Source: an uncultured Pelagibacteraceae bacterium (lineage in GTDB: Bacteria > Pseudomonadota > Alphaproteobacteria > Pelagibacterales > Pelagibacteraceae). From it: DNA of 64,000 nucleotides. Under the pieces are notes generated by a model. It was not told where the DNA came from, did not search any database, and saw only the letters and a list, made by a program, of their open reading frames with translations. The DNA is taken from the NCBI GenBank assembly GCA_902594675.1, contig CACJNE010000001.1, positions 1 through 64,000 of the forward strand, given 5' to 3'. Position numbers and translations under genes: made by a program. Of this stretch, positions 3,503 through 13,238 are shown one piece after another (within the stretch, counting starts at the first letter, position 1; every line of letters starts with the position of its first letter).

Positions 3503-4441
3503 ATGAAAATAAAACTTACATTAATTTTTTTACTTTTTTTTTATAATTTTGCATTTGCTAAAACTAAATCTGAAATACGTTTTGAAAAAGATCTAATAAA
3601 AATTTCAAAATTAAATTTTTTTGTAGATAATAAAGGTAATCCTTATGATTTAGATGAAAATATTGATAAAGATAAAACTATTATTTTAATTTATACCCAT
3701 GGTGGGTGGGGTGGACAAAGAAAATTAAACGGTTGTAATAGACCATGGAGTAAAATACCTCCCATAATATATCAATTAGATGGAACTAAAATAAAAGATT
3801 TAACTATAAAAACATATCAATTGTGCTCTGGTGTAAAAGGGTGGACTCAGAATGAACAAGATAATTTTTGGGAAATGTACAATAAAAATAATCAAGATGT
3901 AAATAGTGTATTAGATCTTAAAGATAAAAATGGAGTTCTTTTAATAGACAAAAGTAAGGACAATCAAAAATCTAAAGTAATGAAGTTAAAAATTGATGAG
4001 TTTAAAAAAAAAGGTTTCAATAATATTGTATTATCTGGACATTCTGCCGGTGCTTATGGTTCTTTTATTTTAAAATCAAATTTTCCTCAGGAAATAAATG
4101 GAGTAATTTCTTTTCACATAGGATTTGGGGGCAAATTTGCAAAAGCAAAAAATCCAGACAAAGGTTGGATAAATTGGAGAAACTACAAAAAATCTCTTAT
4201 TAATTGGTCTGAGATAGGTGACGTTATACTATTTACTCATGATAAAGATTGGGCTGATACAAGAAAGACTTTAAGTTTTTTGACAGAATTTAATAATATT
4301 AAATTTTTTGATTTAAGTGACACGCAATGTAAAAAGAAAAAATTATTAGGTGACTACCATGGAATTGCTTTAACAAAATGTTTTGCAGAAAAGGATCCTA
4401 GAAGTAAAGAGGTAATTAGATATTTAGAAAAATTATTTTAA
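3503..4441 (+). CDS. Exported alpha/beta-hydrolase-fold protein
   Basis: A 312-residue protein with an N-terminal signal peptide (hydrophobic residues 4-18, likely cut after FAFA). The nucleophile elbow GHSAG lies at 179-183 (S181), an oxyanion-type HGGWGG at 66-71, and candidate acid and base residues occur in HDKDWAD (about 246-252) and DYHG (about 286-289). It is therefore predicted to be a periplasmic or secreted serine hydrolase such as an esterase, but the substrate is unknown. The gene follows the small membrane protein after 26 bases. Its last four bases overlap the end of the convergent dctM gene. Confidence 0.7.
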   Translation: MKIKLTLIFLLFFYNFAFAKTKSEIRFEKDLIKISKLNFFVDNKGNPYDLDENIDKDKTIILIYTHGGWGGQRKLNGCNRPWSKIPPIIYQLDGTKIKDLTIKTYQLCSGVKGWTQNEQDNFWEMYNKNNQDVNSVLDLKDKNGVLLIDKSKDNQKSKVMKLKIDEFKKKGFNNIVLSGHSAGAYGSFILKSNFPQEINGVISFHIGFGGKFAKAKNPDKGWINWRNYKKSLINWSEIGDVILFTHDKDWADTRKTLSFLTEFNNIKFFDLSDTQCKKKKLLGDYHGIALTKCFAEKDPRSKEVIRYLEKLF

Positions 4442-5703
4442 AGTAGACTTGGTAACCAAGTAGAAAATACAGGAAATAATATCATTAGTATTCCATAAAT
4501 TATTCCTATTATTGTAAACAATGGAACTTCTTTAAATGCATTAGCTGGGTTTTCTTTTATTACACCAGCAGCTGTATATATGCCTACGCAAACCGGTGGA
4601 GTTATCATTCCAATTCCAGCAAAAGCTACAAAAACAACATATAAGTGGAGCAAACTTTGATCAAAAGATAATGTTAATGCTGCAAATATTGGAACGGTTA
4701 AGTAAAATACTGGAACTATTTCTATAAATGTTCCTAAAATTAAACATATTGTTCCTAACATTATCCAAAATAAATTTACGCTCACACCCATATCTGTGAA
4801 GTAAGTTATAATTTTCTGAGGTGCTTGAGTGTAAGTAAGAACAACACTTAAAAAAGTTGCCGTGGCAATAATTGAAAATATAACAGCAGTAATTATAGCC
4901 GTATCTCTCAAACAACTTAATAAAGAAGAAAAAGTTAATTCTCTATAAATTAAAAATCCTATTGTAACTGCATAAACTCCTGCGATAGCTGCAGACTCTG
5001 ACGGAGTTAAAAAACCTGCATATATTCCACCCAATATTATTACTGGAGTTATCAATGCCGGAAGAGCTGCAATTAAAGAAGTTAATCTCTCTTTGAATGT
5101 GGCTTTTTTATCTGCTCTTATATGTCTGCACTTAAATAAAACCAACAGGACCATTAAAATTAGAAGAATAATTCCTGGTATTACACCAGCAGCAAATGTT
5201 TTGGAGACAGGAACATATGTAAGAGCACTAAATAAAATTGCTGCATTTGACGGAGGTATTAATGCTTCAAGAAGTGCAGCAGATGCAGCAAGTACGACCA
5301 CAAACGGAGTAGGGTAACCTTGTTCAATCATTTTGGGCATCATGATGGTTCCAACAGCAGTAATTGCAGCTAATATAGATCCACAAAAAGCTGCAAAGAA
5401 TCCCATTGCGATAACCATTGCAATTCCTAGACCTCCAGGCCAATGACCAACTAAAGTCGTTGCAAACCTTACAAGTCTTAGTGCTGCACCACCTTTAAGC
5501 ATCGCCATCCCACTAAAAATAAATAACGGCACAGCTATAAGTACATGCTTTGTTAGAGCCCCAAAAGATACTTGAATTAAAACAGACCAAGGGAGATTAA
5601 GTCCACCTATAGCAGCTACAGAACTACCTAAACCAAATACTAAAAAAATAGGAACAGAAATTATAAGAGTTACTAAAGATAATATAGATGCTAATGCAAA
5701 CAT
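4438..5703 (-). CDS. dctM: TRAP transporter large permease DctM
   Basis: The 12-helix, sodium-coupled translocation subunit of a tripartite ATP-independent periplasmic transporter in the inner membrane. The 421-residue length is normal. Family features include the repeated small-residue helices, the GSILAAITAVGTIMMP-type stretch and the ALIPPSNAAI loop near the middle, and ITPPVCVGIY near the end. It follows dctQ with a one-base overlap and dctP further upstream, giving the usual P-Q-M order on the minus strand. The ligand is set by DctP and cannot be read here. It is unrelated in close sequence to the second TRAP system in this window. Confidence 0.95.
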   Translation of the reverse strand: MFALASILSLVTLIISVPIFLVFGLGSSVAAIGGLNLPWSVLIQVSFGALTKHVLIAVPLFIFSGMAMLKGGAALRLVRFATTLVGHWPGGLGIAMVIAMGFFAAFCGSILAAITAVGTIMMPKMIEQGYPTPFVVVLAASAALLEALIPPSNAAILFSALTYVPVSKTFAAGVIPGIILLILMVLLVLFKCRHIRADKKATFKERLTSLIAALPALITPVIILGGIYAGFLTPSESAAIAGVYAVTIGFLIYRELTFSSLLSCLRDTAIITAVIFSIIATATFLSVVLTYTQAPQKIITYFTDMGVSVNLFWIMLGTICLILGTFIEIVPVFYLTVPIFAALTLSFDQSLLHLYVVFVAFAGIGMITPPVCVGIYTAAGVIKENPANAFKEVPLFTIIGIIYGILMILFPVFSTWLPSLL

Positions 5704-6194
5704 TAATTTTTTAATAAATTTACAATGTTGTCAAAAAGTAACTCTAATGAGGTTAGAGCTAATATCAAGAAACCAACAGGGAAAGCTAAAAACATCCACC
5801 ATATTGGAATACTAATTTCAATTTCCATAACTTGACCTAAATTGAAATACATAATTGTTGCATCAAGACCTGCTTTAAAAAAAATACAGGCTGATATTAA
5901 AGCGATTATATTTACAATTAGAAATAATATTTCTTTATTTTTTTTTGAGAGTAAGGGAGTTAAAAAATCAACTTTAATATGTTGTCCTTTTTTTAACAAT
6001 GGACCTAATAATGGAAAGACTAACCAACTAACTAAAACTGGTGGTAATTCAATAAACCAAGCAAATCCAGTACCTGTTATGAAACGAGTAGCTGCACTTA
6101 AAAATAAAGCAGCCACCATTATAAAAATGATAAACATTGCAAGAGCTAAAGAAGCTGAGGCCAAATAATTATTAACTACTCGCAATGTTTTCAT
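5703..6194 (-). CDS. dctQ: TRAP transporter small permease DctQ
   Basis: A 163-residue membrane protein with four predicted helices (about residues 12-35, 48-63, 86-107, 128-150), the standard topology of DctQ, which binds the large permease and helps dock the binding protein. It lies 27 bases downstream of dctP and overlaps dctM by one base. The dctP-dctQ gap contains no strong hairpin, unlike the other three binding-protein/permease junctions in this window. Confidence 0.9.
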   Translation of the reverse strand: MKTLRVVNNYLASASLALAMFIIFIMVAALFLSAATRFITGTGFAWFIELPPVLVSWLVFPLLGPLLKKGQHIKVDFLTPLLSKKNKEILFLIVNIIALISACIFFKAGLDATIMYFNLGQVMEIEISIPIWWMFLAFPVGFLILALTSLELLFDNIVNLLKN

Positions 6195-6221
6195 TTTGTT
6201 AGACTAAGCAAAAAACTTATT

Positions 6222-7238
6222 CTAATTATTCTTTGCGTACTCTTGTGCTGCTTTTAAAGCATCAGCATCAATCATTTTAGCCATAGCAGGCATAACTTTG
6301 TCTTTCATTAACTTATCAAATTTTGCTTTCTCAGCCCCTGAAAGAGTAGTTACAACACCACCTCTGTCTTGGAATTCTTTAAGAACAGTTTCACCATGAT
6401 CCATAATTCTGTCTGTTGAAAGTGTTCCTACCTCCTTACCAACATCCATGATTATTTTCTGTAAATCAGCAGGTAGACTATTAAACCAAGTAGAGTTAGC
6501 CATTATGTATGCATCTGCATAATATTGGTAAGGTTTTTGAGCGTATTTCAAAAATTCCCACCAACTATATGCTTTTATACTTCCTGGAGGACTGTTTATT
6601 GTATCAATCATTCCAGATTGTAAAGCATTATATACTTCTCCAGTTTTTAAAGATACACGATTTGCTCCAAGCGCATCCCACATTGGTTCTTCACTTTTAA
6701 GTAATCTTCTAGCTTTTAAACCCTTCATGGCATCAATACCAGTTAACTCTCTTGCACTTGAAATTGACATTACTGGCCCGACAGGATTGTACATTACTAA
6801 AGTTGAATTAGTTTTTTTTGTTAACTCTCCCCAAATTTCCTTTCCTTTAGAAGAATTTTGGAAAAAACCCCTTTGTTGTTCCCAAGAATCAAATAATCCT
6901 GGAAATGAAGCAACATTAAAGTTTTTGTTAATTGGTGGAAAACTTACCACACCAACAATTCCTCCTAGTTCAACAGCGCCTGAAGTTACAGCACCCATTA
7001 CTTCTCTGATACCAAATAGTTGTTTAGATGGATAAACTTCAATTTTAAGTTTGCCATTAGCTCTTTTATTTACTTCATCTGCAAATATTTGAGCATGCTT
7101 TGCACTATGATGTTTAGGACTCCAATGAACTGATAAACGTCCAACAATCTCAGCAAACGCTGCAGTTGAAGAAACTACAAATGAAATAATTAAAAAAAAG
7201 CTAACTAAACTTTTTGATAAAGTTTTAATTTTATTCAT
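6222..7238 (-). CDS. dctP: TRAP transporter substrate-binding protein DctP
   Basis: A 338-residue periplasmic solute receptor with a signal peptide (hydrophobic residues 10-28, likely cut after AAFA). The body is DctP-like: FADEVNKRANGKLKIEVYP near the N-terminus and the KGLKARR arginine region that usually binds a substrate carboxylate, followed by EVYNALQSGMID. It is the first gene of a dctPQM operon. The start is supported by an AGAGGG ribosome site a few bases upstream. A perfect 10-bp inverted repeat at 7271-7300 lies 33-62 bases before the start and may be an operator. The substrate is probably an organic acid, by family only. Confidence 0.92.
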   Translation of the reverse strand: MNKIKTLSKSLVSFFLIISFVVSSTAAFAEIVGRLSVHWSPKHHSAKHAQIFADEVNKRANGKLKIEVYPSKQLFGIREVMGAVTSGAVELGGIVGVVSFPPINKNFNVASFPGLFDSWEQQRGFFQNSSKGKEIWGELTKKTNSTLVMYNPVGPVMSISSARELTGIDAMKGLKARRLLKSEEPMWDALGANRVSLKTGEVYNALQSGMIDTINSPPGSIKAYSWWEFLKYAQKPYQYYADAYIMANSTWFNSLPADLQKIIMDVGKEVGTLSTDRIMDHGETVLKEFQDRGGVVTTLSGAEKAKFDKLMKDKVMPAMAKMIDADALKAAQEYAKNN

Positions 7239-8683: not shown

Positions 8684-8691
8684 TATATTTT

Positions 8692-8787
8692 GTGAAAATA
8701 ACTTTTCTTTTTTTAGTATTTTTCAACTTATTAATGTTTCAAAAATCAATTGCTCAAGAATTTGAATTTATTTCTTTAATAGTTTAA
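8692..8787 (+). CDS. Tiny exported peptide or decayed gene start
   Basis: A GTG-started frame of 31 codons begins with a convincing signal peptide (KITFLFLVFFNLLMF..SIAQ) but stops eight residues after the probable cleavage site. One extra T in the run near 8776 would extend it by another 14 codons (ending EPMECNF). It may be a remnant of a secreted-protein gene or a real micro-peptide. It lies directly before the metalloprotease gene, whose own signal peptide is also out of frame. Confidence 0.25.
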   Translation: MKITFLFLVFFNLLMFQKSIAQEFEFISLIV

Positions 8788-8822
8788 AATTAAATACAGA
8801 ACCAATGGAATGTAATTTCTAA

Positions 8823-10149
8823 ATGAGGAACGTACTTATTTTATTGATATTATTTGTATTTTTTTTTTAGTGATTCTAAAGCGGGATTAAAAGAACCTGG
8901 AAAAATAAATAACTTACAGTGTGCATTAAATGCCTTAGATGGATACAAAGAGGCACTAGAATATTTAAAAAAAAATCCAAAAAAAAATTCTGTTGTATAT
9001 TTAGCATGTCTTGATGGAGAATGGTCTTGGTACTGGTCAGGCTCAAATAAGATCAGCAAAGCACATAAAACTGCTTTAAAAAATTGCTCAAAAAATTCAA
9101 AAAAAAACGGGAATGGTGAGTGTTTTTTGTTTTCAGAAAATGATAAAATTGTTTGGGAGTTGTCAGAAGAAAAAAAAGTTTCTTTAAATCAAGTGATCAT
9201 AAAACTTAACAAACATGATGAAAATAAATATACTGGATGGCCTCATCCATATCAATTTGTTAATATAAATGACCCTAGATTTGTAAAGTATACTGATCAA
9301 AAAAAAAAATTAATCTACGTTAATCAAAATGATGATATTGAAGGAAGATATTTGTATGACCGAGAAGATAAATCAGATGATTTTCAAGTCCATGCGATAT
9401 ATGTTCTTGCCTCAGACTCAAAAGATAAAAAGTATGATGTTAATGGTGTAATAGAGAGAATTGTTCTCAAAGGTAACAAGCATTTAAAATATAAAACAAA
9501 AGAAAAAAGTTTTAGATTAGATTTTACTAAAGAGGGTAAGCTCGATGTCAGTTTCTTAAGACTTCCTATCACTAAAAAAGAACTAAATAATCATCAAGAT
9601 GGAACAACTCTTATAGCGGCTGAAGCTGTGAGAAATGGTTTTTATCATCCAAAAAAACTTTATTCAATTTTTTACCAAGATAAATATAAGAGAGAGTGGG
9701 GCCAAGTAGGTAGTGGTACAATTGAAACTCCCAATGGAGATGTTGAAATAGTTTCAGGTGTTGTTTATTTGGGAGGAGAGGGCAGAAGAGATGCTTACAT
9801 ACCCCATTTACACGAACTTTTTCATGCTCTAGGCTTTGTCCAGCTTTGCGCACCAGCTGCTGTAATAGAGAAAAACAGTAGGTGGGGAAAAAATGATCAT
9901 TTAACTTTTGCAGGAGATATTATGAGTAATAATGACAGTGGGAATGGAAATATAGATAGTAAAAGAAAACATTATTACGGTCACTCCATGAAAAATTGTC
10001 CAATGGATTTACGTAAAAGTGTATTTTTAGAACCAACTGAAAAAGATCCTCAACATGTACCAAGAACAGAAAATTGTTATAAAACGCAATGGGTTGAGGT
10101 ATATAATCATCAACGTTCTGTTGATTGTCTTAATAGATTAAATTTTTAA
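8823..10149 (+). CDS. Secreted zinc-metalloprotease-like protein, signal peptide out of frame at a poly-T run
   Basis: The main frame is open from 8854 (TTG) to 10149, 431 residues, but lacks a complete signal peptide. An ATG at 8823 encodes MRNVLILLILFVFFF in another frame and ends at TAG just after ten T (8859-8868). Removing one T would join the two and give a normal exported protein. A cysteine-containing N-domain (about 20-105) precedes a catalytic-type domain with HELFHALGF at 320-328 (HExxH zinc site; no clear third His at the metzincin position). The stretch around VHAIYVLASDS matches the paralogue at 34018-34887, as do the C-terminal cysteines. Target unknown. Coordinates here include the out-of-frame signal peptide. 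Confidence 0.65.
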
Positions 10150-10151
10150 GA

Positions 10152-10959
10152 TTAATTTTTACAAACTACAGGATAAGTATTTAAATTTAATTCATCCAAA
10201 ACTCTAATTCGATTAGGTATTTTTTTTAATACTTTTTCTTTTGTTTTTCCTTTTATTCTATCTTCATAACATCTTATTCCTACCCAAAATGCTATTGTTT
10301 CTGCGATGTCTTCAGCAAAATCAGTTCTGGCATAATCTGTAATATAAATTTTATCATCTTTTACAGCTTGAAACCATTTTTTACTGTTTTTGAGATGTTG
10401 CTGAATACTAGCGTGAGCTGCTTCATGAAGTAAAGTATAAAATATTTCAGGGTTTCCCTCAGGATACAGTGTGAATGAGTGGCCTTGATCACCAAATGGA
10501 TCTTCACCTAAATTATAGGTATATAAGTCCCTAGGTTCATCTAATTTTTCAATAGTTGCAAACGAGCTTTGTGAACTGCCGGGATGTACTGTAATTCTAT
10601 GTACTCTATAATGTTCAGTCATGGTTTTTGTTATTTTGTATCCATGTCTTAGGAAAAACGGCAGTTGTCCAAACATTAAACTATATTTTTTAACTAGTTT
10701 ATCAGCTTTATCTCTTTTAAATTCTTTATTTATTCTAAATTGGATAACATGGTCACAATTTGCATAAGTAACATTGTAAATATATGCATCAAATTTTATT
10801 GGAAAAAATTTAATTTTGTTTGTTTTGCGATTTCTTGGAATTCCTTTGAAACCATCAAGTTTTTTACCTGATGTTTGTTTAATAAATTTTATTTCTTTTA
10901 AAGCAGACGGGTCTTTTATATTTCGAAAAGTTAAATTTTTTTGATTTTTATAAACGAAT
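10152..10959 (-). CDS. Zinc-peptidase-like domain, 3' part of a frameshifted MORN-peptidase gene
   Basis: The first ATG is at 10676 (174 residues), but the frame stays open and protein-like upstream to 11033 with no usable start; the stretch includes DAYIYNVTYANCDHVIQFRIN. This suggests the domain is the C-terminal half of the protein begun at 11787. The frames differ by one base and meet at eight T (minus-strand A) at 10961-10968; deleting one A would join them. The active-site motif is HEAAH, followed about 45 residues later by AEDIAETIAFW, which could supply a glutamate zinc ligand (gluzincin type). The end is three bases from the convergent metalloprotease gene. Substrate unknown. Confidence 0.6.
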
Positions 10960-11787
10960 CTTTTTTTTCTTGATATTTTTTGCTTCTGATTTCCAATTAA
11001 AATTTCTATAATAGATTTTACTAGGATCTTTTTTTAAAATCTTACATTCATTATTGTTATCTTGAAAATCTTTTTGCCAAATAACTTCACCAATAGGTTT
11101 TTTTTTAGCAGATAATTCTGCTGTTTTTTTTATTACTTCATTAACTAACTCCCCTTTTTTCCATTGTCCTGATACTTTATCTCCATTAGCATAAATGTAG
11201 AGTCCAAAACCATCTGCTTGGTTATTTTTTCTATTACCAATATATTTATCTCCATTTGGCCAAGTTACCGTTCCTTCTCCATTCTGTAATCCAAATTCCC
11301 ATTCTCCGGAATATTTTGACCCATCAATCCATTCAAATGTCCCAATTCCATGATGTTTTCCATTTTTCCAACTACCGGAATATGTATCTCCATTTGGCCA
11401 AGTTACTGTTCCTTCTCCATTTACGCAATCACCTTCATGACATTCTGCTTTTATATTTGATTTTTTTACAATATTTGATTTTTTTTCTTGTCCAATATTT
11501 TCTAAAATTCTTTTTTTACCAATTGCAAAGAGTTTACATTCACCAGAAATTCCTTTAAGCTTTTTTTGTTTTTTACAATCACTTAAACCATCATTTTTTC
11601 CTGTTCCACGACCGTACTCACATCTTCCATCATTACCCATTACAACATAAAGATAATCATTAGATTTTTCTTTTAACAAATCTTGATATACTTCATCTAC
11701 AATCCATTTACATATTTGATTTGTTTTTGCATAAGACGCATTACTCCATAATAAACTGATTAACAAAATTATAAAAAATCTTATCAT
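10948..11787 (-). CDS. Exported MORN-repeat protein, 5' part of a probable MORN-peptidase fusion
   Basis: A 279-residue frame with a signal peptide (residues 1-20, FFIILLISLLWSNASYA). An N-terminal cysteine-bearing part (about 25-95) precedes three to four MORN repeats at about 118-205, seen as repeats of the type GEGTVTWPNGDTYSG, HGIGTFEWIDGSKYSGEW and ADGFGLYIYANGDKVSGQW. MORN repeats form beta-hairpin rods that bind proteins or lipids. The frame ends shortly after an eight-base A run; one base fewer would extend it into the HEAAH peptidase domain downstream. As it stands it would be a periplasmic MORN protein without the enzyme domain. Confidence 0.65.
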   Translation of the reverse strand: MIRFFIILLISLLWSNASYAKTNQICKWIVDEVYQDLLKEKSNDYLYVVMGNDGRCEYGRGTGKNDGLSDCKKQKKLKGISGECKLFAIGKKRILENIGQEKKSNIVKKSNIKAECHEGDCVNGEGTVTWPNGDTYSGSWKNGKHHGIGTFEWIDGSKYSGEWEFGLQNGEGTVTWPNGDKYIGNRKNNQADGFGLYIYANGDKVSGQWKKGELVNEVIKKTAELSAKKKPIGEVIWQKDFQDNNNECKILKKDPSKIYYRNFNWKSEAKNIKKKKIRL

Positions 11788-11821
11788 TTTATTAAAATAT
11801 ATTTATATTCTATTTTATTGT

Positions 11822-11849
11822 TTGAAAGAAAAAAAATAAGTAGTATAAA
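11822..11849 (+). promoter_or_regulatory. Promoter before the truncated tRNA-Met copy
   Basis: TTGAAA at 11822-11827 and TATAAA at 11844-11849 with a 16-base spacer, 16 bases before the tRNA-like sequence. The same promoter is repeated without change before the intact tRNA gene. It is probably active but would here transcribe a broken tRNA and possibly the genes inside the inserted element. Confidence 0.6.
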
Positions 11850-11865
11850 GCATCAACTTTTTGAT

Positions 11866-11928
11866 GGCGGGGTAGCTCAGTTGGTTAGAGCGCGGGACTC
11901 ATAAGCCCGAGGTCAGTGGTTCGATCCC
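11866..11928 (+). pseudogene. Truncated tRNA-Met(CAT) copy
   Basis: The first 63 bases of tRNA-Met (acceptor 5' strand, D-arm, CTCATAA anticodon loop, variable region, 5' half of the T-arm) are identical to the intact gene at 13162. After GGTTCGATCCC the sequence changes, so the 3' T-stem, the acceptor 3' strand and CCA are absent. It cannot fold into a working tRNA and marks the left junction of the inserted segment. Confidence 0.85.
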
Positions 11929-11965
11929 CTAGATTTCCTAATTAATTTAAGCAAACATTCATATT

Positions 11966-11983
11966 GGTCCACTGGTGGTCCAC
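11966..11983. repeat. Two GGTCCAC repeats at the left end of the element
   Basis: GGTCCAC occurs at 11966-11972 and 11977-11983, 11 bases apart (one helical turn). The same heptamer occurs at 13061-13067 and 13072-13078, again 11 apart, near the other end, with a variant GGTCCAA at 13050-13056. The equal spacing at both ends suggests binding sites for a recombinase or accessory factor. Confidence 0.5.
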
Positions 11984-11998
11984 TGATAAAGTAGATTT

Positions 11999-12787
11999 GT
12001 GAAAAAAATTATTTTTTTTGGATTAATAGTTCTTGCTATAATTGGCTATCAATATGATAAAAAAAATAAAGCAGAGATAAAAGCCAAAACAATTTGTACA
12101 GATCATTTTAAAACTGACGATAAAAGATGTTTAGAAAAGTATTGGAACTATATCTTTTATATTTCTAAAGATTTATCTGAAGAAAGATTTGAAGAATATA
12201 AGCTGCAAGTACGATCGGTTGAGAATAAAATAGATCAACTCATTAAAGAGAATGAAAATACTTTAATAAATGCTTTAGAATATAATATTGTTCCATTTCA
12301 TGAAATTAGAAGAGTTATTGGTGATGAAATAGTCGGCAAAAAAGTTATTTTGACTGGTGGAAATAAGGCGAGATTTGATTGGCCTTATTGCAGAGGATAT
12401 TTCAGCAAATATTACGTTTGCATGAAACAAAAAGGGTATGATTATGACTCAGATAAAGAAGTGGATGACAAACTTGAGGTAGGAATAATTAACATTGAAG
12501 ATTTTCCAAAAGTTAAAGAAATAATTGATGAATTAAGAAGTTTTAATTTAAATTATTATAAAATAACAGTTTATGGTGAAATGATGCAACAAGGATTTGA
12601 ACCTAAAATTGATGCAGATTTTATAAAACTTGAAAAAGTTTTGTTGGATGATGATGCATATATGGATGCATTAAATTCAGGTATATACGATACCTTGCAT
12701 GATAAGTTTGCCAAGTATTATAAGGAAAAGTTTCCTGATGAAAAAAAAGTTCCAAGACACGATTTAACTGTATATAATAAACCTTAG
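11999..12787 (+). CDS. Membrane-anchored protein of unknown function carried by the element
   Basis: A 262-residue protein starting at GTG. Residues 2-17 (KKIIFFGLIVLAIIGY) form a signal anchor; the rest is soluble and rich in charged residues, with cysteines at about 33, 44, 135 and 142 in the probable periplasmic part. It is the only sizeable gene in the tRNA-Met insertion. No recombinase, nuclease or phage motif is visible. Its codon use looks like that of the neighbours, so there is no compositional sign of recent foreign origin. Function unknown. Confidence 0.55.
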   Translation: MKKIIFFGLIVLAIIGYQYDKKNKAEIKAKTICTDHFKTDDKRCLEKYWNYIFYISKDLSEERFEEYKLQVRSVENKIDQLIKENENTLINALEYNIVPFHEIRRVIGDEIVGKKVILTGGNKARFDWPYCRGYFSKYYVCMKQKGYDYDSDKEVDDKLEVGIINIEDFPKVKEIIDELRSFNLNYYKITVYGEMMQQGFEPKIDADFIKLEKVLLDDDAYMDALNSGIYDTLHDKFAKYYKEKFPDEKKVPRHDLTVYNKP

Positions 12788-12847
12788 TCCTGATTTAGAA
12801 AATATCTCTACTTGCTGGGACTTTAAACACAACGCTAAAGGAGGCAA

Positions 12848-13015
12848 ATGAAAATAATAATACAATCAATAAAAAACTATTTTAAATCAAAGAAGGATAG
12901 GGGATTAGAACCTATATTTTTTGAAAAAATAGGTGATCAAAAAACATCAAGAGATGAGATGAAAAAAAATTTGATCAAAGCATTAGAAAAAAATGGTTGG
13001 ACTATAAAAAAATAA
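12848..13015 (+). CDS. 55-residue basic protein, unknown function
   Basis: ATG at 12848, stop at 13013-13015. It has a strong AAAGGAGG ribosome site at 12837-12844, among the best in the window, though only three bases from the ATG. The product is lysine-rich with a helical, partly amphipathic C-terminus (KKNLIKALEKNGWTIKK) and no signal peptide. It might bind nucleic acid, but no family motif is seen. The 60 bases before it (GCTGGGACTTTAAACACAACGC) look like an organised leader rather than random AT-rich spacer. It lies within the tRNA-Met insertion. Confidence 0.5.
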   Translation: MKIIIQSIKNYFKSKKDRGLEPIFFEKIGDQKTSRDEMKKNLIKALEKNGWTIKK

Positions 13016-13024
13016 ATAACGCAC

Positions 13025-13088
13025 GGGTTTCCACGTGACCAGAAATCCTGGTCCAAATTTGGTCCACTCACGGTCCACGAGGAAACCC
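13025..13088. repeat. Nested inverted repeat near the right end of the element
   Basis: GGGTTTCCACGTGACC at 13025-13040 pairs with GGTCCACGAGGAAACCC at 13072-13088 (one mismatch and one bulge). Inside lie a CCAAATTTGG palindrome (13053-13062) and GGTCCAC motifs. The stretch is clearly more GC-rich than its surroundings. It could be a recombination site, an RNA hairpin ending the small gene, or both. Confidence 0.6.
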
Positions 13089-13113
13089 TTATTAAAGACG
13101 TTTTCTTAATTTC

Positions 13114-13224
13114 TTGTTTGAAAGAAAAAAAATAAGTAGTATAAACCAACAATTATTTTATGGCGGGGTAGCTCAGTTGGTTAGAGCGCGGGACTCATAA
13201 GCCCGAGGTCAGTGGTTCGATCCC
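13114..13224 (+). repeat. Right copy of the 111-bp direct repeat
   Basis: Matches 11818-11928 at 106 of 111 positions, all differences being in the 14-base linker at 13146-13159. It contains the promoter and most of the intact tRNA-Met gene. Confidence 0.9.
13118..13145 (+). promoter_or_regulatory. Promoter of tRNA-Met(CAT)
   Basis: TTGAAA at 13118-13123 and TATAAA at 13140-13145, spacer 16 bases. It is identical to the promoter of the truncated copy although the linker behind it has drifted, which supports it as the functional element. Confidence 0.65.
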
Positions 13225-13238
13225 ACTTCCCGCTACCA
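13162..13238 (+). tRNA. tRNA-Met (anticodon CAT)
   Basis: A 77-base tRNA including an encoded CCA. The acceptor GGCGGGG pairs with TCCCGCT (G-U at both ends); the D-arm is GCTCAGTTGGTTAGAGC; the anticodon arm is CGGGA-CTCATAA-GCCCG with CAT at loop positions 34-36; the T-arm AGTGG-TTCGATC-CCACT is perfect. The body resembles alphaproteobacterial elongator tRNA-Met. A lysidine-modified tRNA-Ile(CAT) cannot be wholly excluded by eye, and the unpaired A-G at the base of the anticodon loop should be noted. Its promoter and 5' part appear to have been supplied by the upstream insertion. Confidence 0.92.

Follow-up and report, generated by a model that had tools for sequence, protein, structure and literature searches.

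A 1.3-kb element without an integrase supplies the promoter and 5' part of tRNA-Met in SAR11 bacteria

Integration that rebuilds the front half and the promoter of a tRNA gene is the reverse of the usual pattern. Separately, some mobile elements are cis-mobilisable, with recombination sites at their ends, no recombinase of their own and a dependence on a helper. Described systems touch on one or other of these features. In the archaeal pTN3 integrations, the 5' half of a tRNA gene serves as attB and the promoter comes from the element, a mode 'seldomly encountered in bacteria' (PMC8371274), and dusA islands, IMEVchUSA3 and SXT in prfC provide their target gene with a new promoter and 5' end (PMC4482086, PMC8409611). 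The stated filters of Islander accept a 5' fragment upstream of the tRNA (PMC4383910), integrase-less hitchers are known in other forms, namely CALINs and phage satellites (PMC11389934), and tycheposons are described as elements of 4-200 kb that encode a tyrosine recombinase and occupy tRNA genes, tRNA-Met included, in streamlined marine bacteria (PMC10872708).

Here we describe a 1,296-bp unit in the tRNA-Met gene of an uncultured Pelagibacteraceae bacterium (GCA_902594675.1, contig CACJNE010000001.1, positions 1-64,000 of the forward strand; this whole stretch of 64,000 nt is referred to as the window), a member of SAR11. These are the most abundant bacteria of the ocean. The unit resembles the pTN3 type (PMC8371274) in that the tRNA is rebuilt with a 5' half and a promoter from the element; pTN3-type integrations, however, are archaeal, bear an integrase and have their integrase gene split by integration, none of which is seen here. 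It is like dusA islands, IMEVchUSA3 and SXT in its insertion at the 5' end of a gene for which it supplies promoter and 5' end, yet those elements target protein genes, encode an integrase of their own and are far larger. With Islander-class islands (PMC4383910) it has in common a complete tRNA and a displaced fragment of the same orientation that together bracket foreign DNA, the fragment lies on the correct side, and for the family an empty site is known in two pairs of genomes; it differs from these islands in having no tyrosine integrase of its own and in that the 5' half and promoter are what is replaced. Like CALINs, phage satellites and cis-mobilisable elements, it combines recombination-type ends with the lack of a recombinase, its helper being hypothetical and its size much smaller than that of known phage satellites. 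The likeness to tycheposons as defined in PMC10872708 consists of tRNA-bounded cargo in streamlined marine bacteria with tRNA-Met among the sites, whereas the Met units measure 1.2-3.2 kb (1.3 kb in the window) and lack a recombinase. The Met element works like these known systems but, lacking an integrase and having a hypothetical helper, fits none of them fully. Units of this kind will escape island finders that demand an integrase, and a literature search found no publications on this SAR11 element family.

The repeat and the rebuilt tRNA gene

The locus is marked by a direct repeat of 118 nt at 94% identity (11811-11928 and 13107-13224), whose copies are spaced 1,296 bp apart and whose occurrence by chance has a BLAST E of about 1e-46. 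A preliminary description of this DNA had reported two copies at this spacing, and the finer layout that it gave can be seen in the sequence as well: the 32 nt at 11818-11849 recur at 13114-13145 without a mismatch (TTGTTT, 17 nt, TAGTAT), the following linker of 14 nt differs at five positions, and the next 65 nt, AT plus tRNA nt 1-63, are the same in both copies. ARAGORN calls a single tRNA-Met(CAT) among the two, the right one, and Rfam recognises in the left copy part of a tRNA, covering model positions 8-63. The left copy is incomplete and the right complete, as had been described, but the break is not inside the T-loop, where it had been placed; the left copy stops at tRNA nt 63, in the T stem, two bases into its 3' strand and just past the T-loop. 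The features of the locus are as follows:

11818-11849, + strand: host-side (displaced) tRNA-Met promoter, TTGTTT, 17 nt, TAGTAT, read directly; other filled genomes have differing host promoters at the same position
11866-11928, + strand: displaced 5' fragment (scar) of tRNA-Met, nt 1-63, matching these at 100% by BLAST; same end point in eight other genomes
11929-13224, + strand: integrated element of 1,296 bp without an integrase, from repeat, ORF and family searches and from empty sites in relatives of the family
13114-13145, + strand: element-borne promoter, now ahead of the complete tRNA, from comparison of the right-side 60 nt across genomes
13162-13238, + strand: complete tRNA-Met(CAT), its 5' part element-derived and at least nt 64-77 host-derived (ARAGORN, BLAST, Rfam)

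The usual setting of this gene, read from the flanks of relatives such as L042 and L053, is a GST gene followed by tRNA-Met and apt. Between the GST gene and the scar the window has three ORFs (8684-11787), one of 431 aa, one of 174 aa that is weakly zinc peptidase-like and one of 279 aa containing MORN repeats. In island-free relatives the GST gene appears to stand immediately ahead of tRNA-Met, without these ORFs, which are probably older insertions.

Relatives, empty sites and the two promoters

The preliminary description had proposed a search for the same unit elsewhere. We scanned one genome per species, 84,980 species in all, with a 25-nt probe taken from the arm stretch of the element's left end, and this search, like the other comparisons reported here, dealt mostly with incomplete single-cell or metagenome assemblies. 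It yielded nine loci, every one in Pelagibacteraceae, and these nine other SAR11 genomes share the left end of the unit. Conservation of the arms follows from selection by the probe, whilst the 36 nt that precede the probe stretch and the entire right end played no part in the selection. At eight of the nine loci, a tRNA-Met 5' fragment ending at nt 63 abuts the same left end, behind host promoters that differ; in one of these, L095, decay has affected the first nine bases of the fragment. At the ninth, L093, the left arms lie within a composite and no tRNA scar precedes them. The right end is readable in all but L090, where the contig ends first, and has the same order each time: GGTCCAC repeats, a conserved stretch, a TTGTTTG...TAGTATA promoter and the complete tRNA. 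Inserts range from 1,174 to 3,159 bp, and the cargo varies: L088 has an HNH nuclease, L096 an Mrr-type nuclease together with a TerB-like protein, and other loci have membrane proteins. A survey of all 32 tRNA genes in the complete genome G012 gave no scar, and the feature is therefore strain-specific.

Internal left-arm repeats without a tRNA scar, each followed by a start codon, occur at L043 (7601-7658) and L093 (3561); both are composites that have lost the junction between two units.

The preliminary description had also asked for the tRNA-Met locus to be compared in relatives, and empty sites do exist, in two pairs of genomes. Filled G065 (L105) and empty G022 (L049) are flush on both flanks, at 73% over 714 nt on the left and 86% over 699 nt on the right, and so are filled G067 (L103) and empty G032 (L052), at 82% over 685 nt and 90% over 701 nt. 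Each empty site has a single tRNA and a single promoter. Among the relatives compared, none offered an empty site matching both flanks of the window's own locus. The relatives do not show the pattern named as contrary to the model, whether two full copies or the lack of any empty site, and for the family the empty/filled pairs rule out a tandem duplication with later truncation. Such a history, in which tRNA-Met was duplicated in tandem, the first copy was truncated and a random insertion fell in between, would suit the identity of promoter and tRNA in both copies so long as the window is taken alone; set against the empty sites with one tRNA, the differing left promoters elsewhere and the conserved ends with paired repeats, it is hardly credible.

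The origin of the two copies can be read from the 60 nt ahead of the left fragment and ahead of the complete tRNA, which we compared in eight genomes including the window. The right (element) sides have a mean identity of 88% across these genomes and the left (host) sides 59%, against a shuffled baseline of 54%. Left versus right within one genome, identity is 57-62% in five of the eight and 75-85% in the other three, with the window highest (85% over 60 nt), and the window's host promoter is of the same type as that carried by many relatives. Since its two promoters are alike, the window alone would not settle where they came from; because the right sides agree across genomes to an extent that the left sides do not, comparison of the sequences traces the left copy to the 5' region of the host itself and the right copy to that of the element, with no drifting duplicate. 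It had been argued earlier that drift in the linker beside an identical promoter reflected selection on a captured att sequence. This argument fails, the copies being the host's and the element's versions, and the correction strengthens the conclusion that the argument had been meant to serve, namely that an element in tRNA-Met supplies promoter and 5' part: the same nt-63 junction is found in eight further genomes, with differing left promoters and a shared element promoter in the readable right ends.

Ends, cargo and a proposed exchange of promoters

Within the element we distinguish the following features:

11929-11989, + strand: left end of the element, CTAGATTTCCTAATTAATTTAAGCAAACAT...TGGTCCACTGGTGGTCCACTGATAA, with arm-like repeats at 11965-11972 and 11976-11983; conserved in other SAR11 genomes
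11999-12787, + strand: cargo ORF of 262 aa with an N-terminal hydrophobic segment, start codon 9 nt after TGATAA
12777-12860, + strand: candidate SAM-II-like riboswitch leader before the 55-aa ORF (Rfam RF00521, 26.3 bits, E 0.0021, under the gathering score of 36)
12848-13015, + strand: 55-aa ORF, common to several of these elements and to the tRNA-Ser island of the same genome, from ORF and sequence searches
13049-13078, + strand: right-end arm-like repeats TGGTCCAA, TGGTCCAC and CGGTCCAC, 11 bp apart each; same layout in other elements

The left end opens with CTAGATTTCCTAATT. Paired TGGTCCAC repeats at 11-bp spacing lie near both ends, at 11965 and 11976 on the left and at 13049, 13060 and 13071 on the right, a feature absent from the preliminary description; in place and spacing they look like the arm-type sites of tyrosine integrases, and they may be used as such. 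Searches of Pfam and PHROGs returned no integrase among the ORFs of the element and no family match for either the 262-aa or the 55-aa ORF, and the predicted structure of the 55-aa protein is of low confidence (pLDDT 60). The leader of the 55-aa ORF is nearly invariant: RF00521 scores 20-28 bits (gathering score 36) in twelve loci including the window, the others including L089, L092, L096, L115 and L121. In two genomes (L120, L121) the 55-aa gene adjoins tmRNA.

How would such a unit move? We consider it very probable that it is an integrase-less element in tRNA-Met which replaces the promoter and 5' part of the gene, and that it is moved in trans by the integrase of a hypothetical helper. 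The unit's attP would contain a tRNA promoter together with the 5' part of the gene; a phage or a larger element would provide, in trans, a tyrosine integrase that binds the paired TGGTCCAC arm sites at both ends, and site-specific recombination would then take place within the tRNA, probably at the anticodon loop. The host promoter and tRNA nt 1-63 would stay behind on the left as a scar, the complete tRNA on the right would join a promoter and 5' part from the element to the host's 3' end, and the host's old tRNA promoter would now be directed into the cargo gene. The anticodon loop is a usual place of crossover, and it is spanned by all the fragment limits from different tRNAs and by the 3'-type fragments at tRNA-Met in G061 (nt 31-77 and 33-77); in tRNA-Met itself, the crossover is placed only within nt 1-63 because the copies are identical there.

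In each of the 11 distinct left ends, TGATAA is followed at 9-11 nt by a start codon on the same strand. About 70 nt separate the scar from the first cargo gene, which lies downstream of the promoter that formerly served the host's tRNA, and no terminator-like site was found between the scar and the cargo start. Because the start of the cargo is fixed behind the arms, downstream of the old promoter and with no such site in between, the layout suggests that integration trades promoters, the element's going to the tRNA and the host's to the cargo. It is possible, and we put it forward tentatively, that SAR11 harbours a family of minimal gene-delivery units which work by this exchange, giving the tRNA a promoter of the element and placing cargo fixed behind the arms under the host's strong tRNA promoter, and which are moved in trans by the integrases of other elements. 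If this were true, streamlined genomes would gain genes without carrying mobility genes.

A deletion remnant is another way to account for the missing integrase: a full integrase-bearing phage or island would have lost the enzyme and most of its body in place, leaving the 1.3-kb unit as an immobile fossil. The tRNA-Gly element described below holds an integrase exactly where Met elements have their first cargo gene, and the composites with repeated left arms and lost scars (L043, L093) show that decay occurs. However, none of the ten Met units examined has an integrase in its readable part, and the units have differing cargo, intact ends and independent host backgrounds; separate decay, moreover, would not yield a start codon 9-11 nt from the arms every time. 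We regard a fossil as quite unlikely and continue to favour an element mobilised in trans.

Other tRNA genes and the source of the integrase

Replacement of the 5' half and promoter is recurrent in SAR11, being seen at tRNA-Met, tRNA-Ser and tRNA-Gly of one genome, and the units are mostly too small for an integrase. This recurrence offers a concrete and testable route of gene uptake for very streamlined, hugely abundant ocean bacteria, with a cargo that includes nucleases which could be defence genes, and it implies that strains exchange tRNA promoters themselves. On contig C5 of the same genome (L070), a 5' fragment of tRNA-Gly(GCC), nt 1-54 at 100%, lies 8.36 kb upstream; at its end come paired TGGGATGCA repeats with a spacing of 12 bp, followed by a tyrosine integrase of 316 aa, and similar repeats stand before the complete tRNA-Gly. 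This element has the same layout as the Met unit, but with its own tyrosine integrase. At 8.3 kb (L070, 4064-12491, genome G000), it also encodes a T5orf172 protein, a PDZ protein and a 423-aa ORF of PHROG 4756 (unknown function). On contig C12 (L005), two further copies of the 5' half of tRNA-Ser(TGA) lie upstream, one of 61 nt at 95% and one of 34 nt at 94%; they stop in the anticodon loop, and a second copy of the 55-aa gene sits between these 5' repeats. The two tRNA-Ser scars there stand in a row (4359-6715), and the 55-aa gene and the other small ORFs are all antisense to the tRNA. The tRNA-Thr(TGT) of the same genome has an ordinary 3'-type fragment.

The two successive 5' scars at tRNA-Ser, together with the composites at L043 and L093, would also agree with a different kind of movement, in which cargo travels with an adjacent full element (accretion) or is spread by homologous recombination through tRNA and end sequences. 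A further point in favour of such cis-mobilised or recombination-borne cargo is G061, where one tRNA-Met gene is used from both sides (contig C1, 240001-286000; L097-L099): upstream of it stands a 5'-type unit, and downstream, at 33.5 and 35.2 kb, come two 3'-type fragments, the farther of which adjoins apt. Yet an integrase-bearing partner was unseen at the Met sites examined, and the nt-63 junction in eight different host backgrounds argues for site-specific rather than homologous recombination. On balance this route is unlikely, if worth keeping in mind, and a site-specific integrase acting in trans is the reading that we carry forward.

From where could that integrase be drawn? Only two tyrosine recombinase genes are present in this genome, one of them within the tRNA-Gly element, and most genomes of the genus have one, of about 310-325 aa, and therefore no cognate integrase for the element. 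As the units are without an integrase and the genomes of the genus mostly have one tyrosine recombinase gene, the enzyme would have to come from elsewhere. Viral, phage and relative-genome searches returned no integrase or virus with TGGTCCAC arms, and viral contigs gave nothing for the exact end motifs, the tRNA core or the right-end pattern, and no relative of the tRNA-Gly integrase. Against phage proteins, this integrase matched only phage integrases at about 32-34% identity, and among the matches listed from phage DNA searches there were only tRNA genes or tRNA-like stretches.

Two near-identical units (L054, 5735-7266; L055, 6374-7901) have GATCACA repeats 11 bp apart and a protease-like ORF, with partial tRNA-Met pieces and a promoter, and are intergenic, away from any tRNA gene. 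We considered them as clean secondary-site insertions and rejected this: at that position the empty relative G018 (L127) is without a tRNA-like core, and the two units (in G011 and G027, respectively) were therefore left unused in placing the crossover.

In genome G010, an integrase 57% identical to that of the tRNA-Gly element (L108, 7526-8494) has as neighbours a displaced 3' part of a tRNA and a gene for a DNA methyltransferase; it is of the same family as the tRNA-Gly integrase and of the opposite (3') type.
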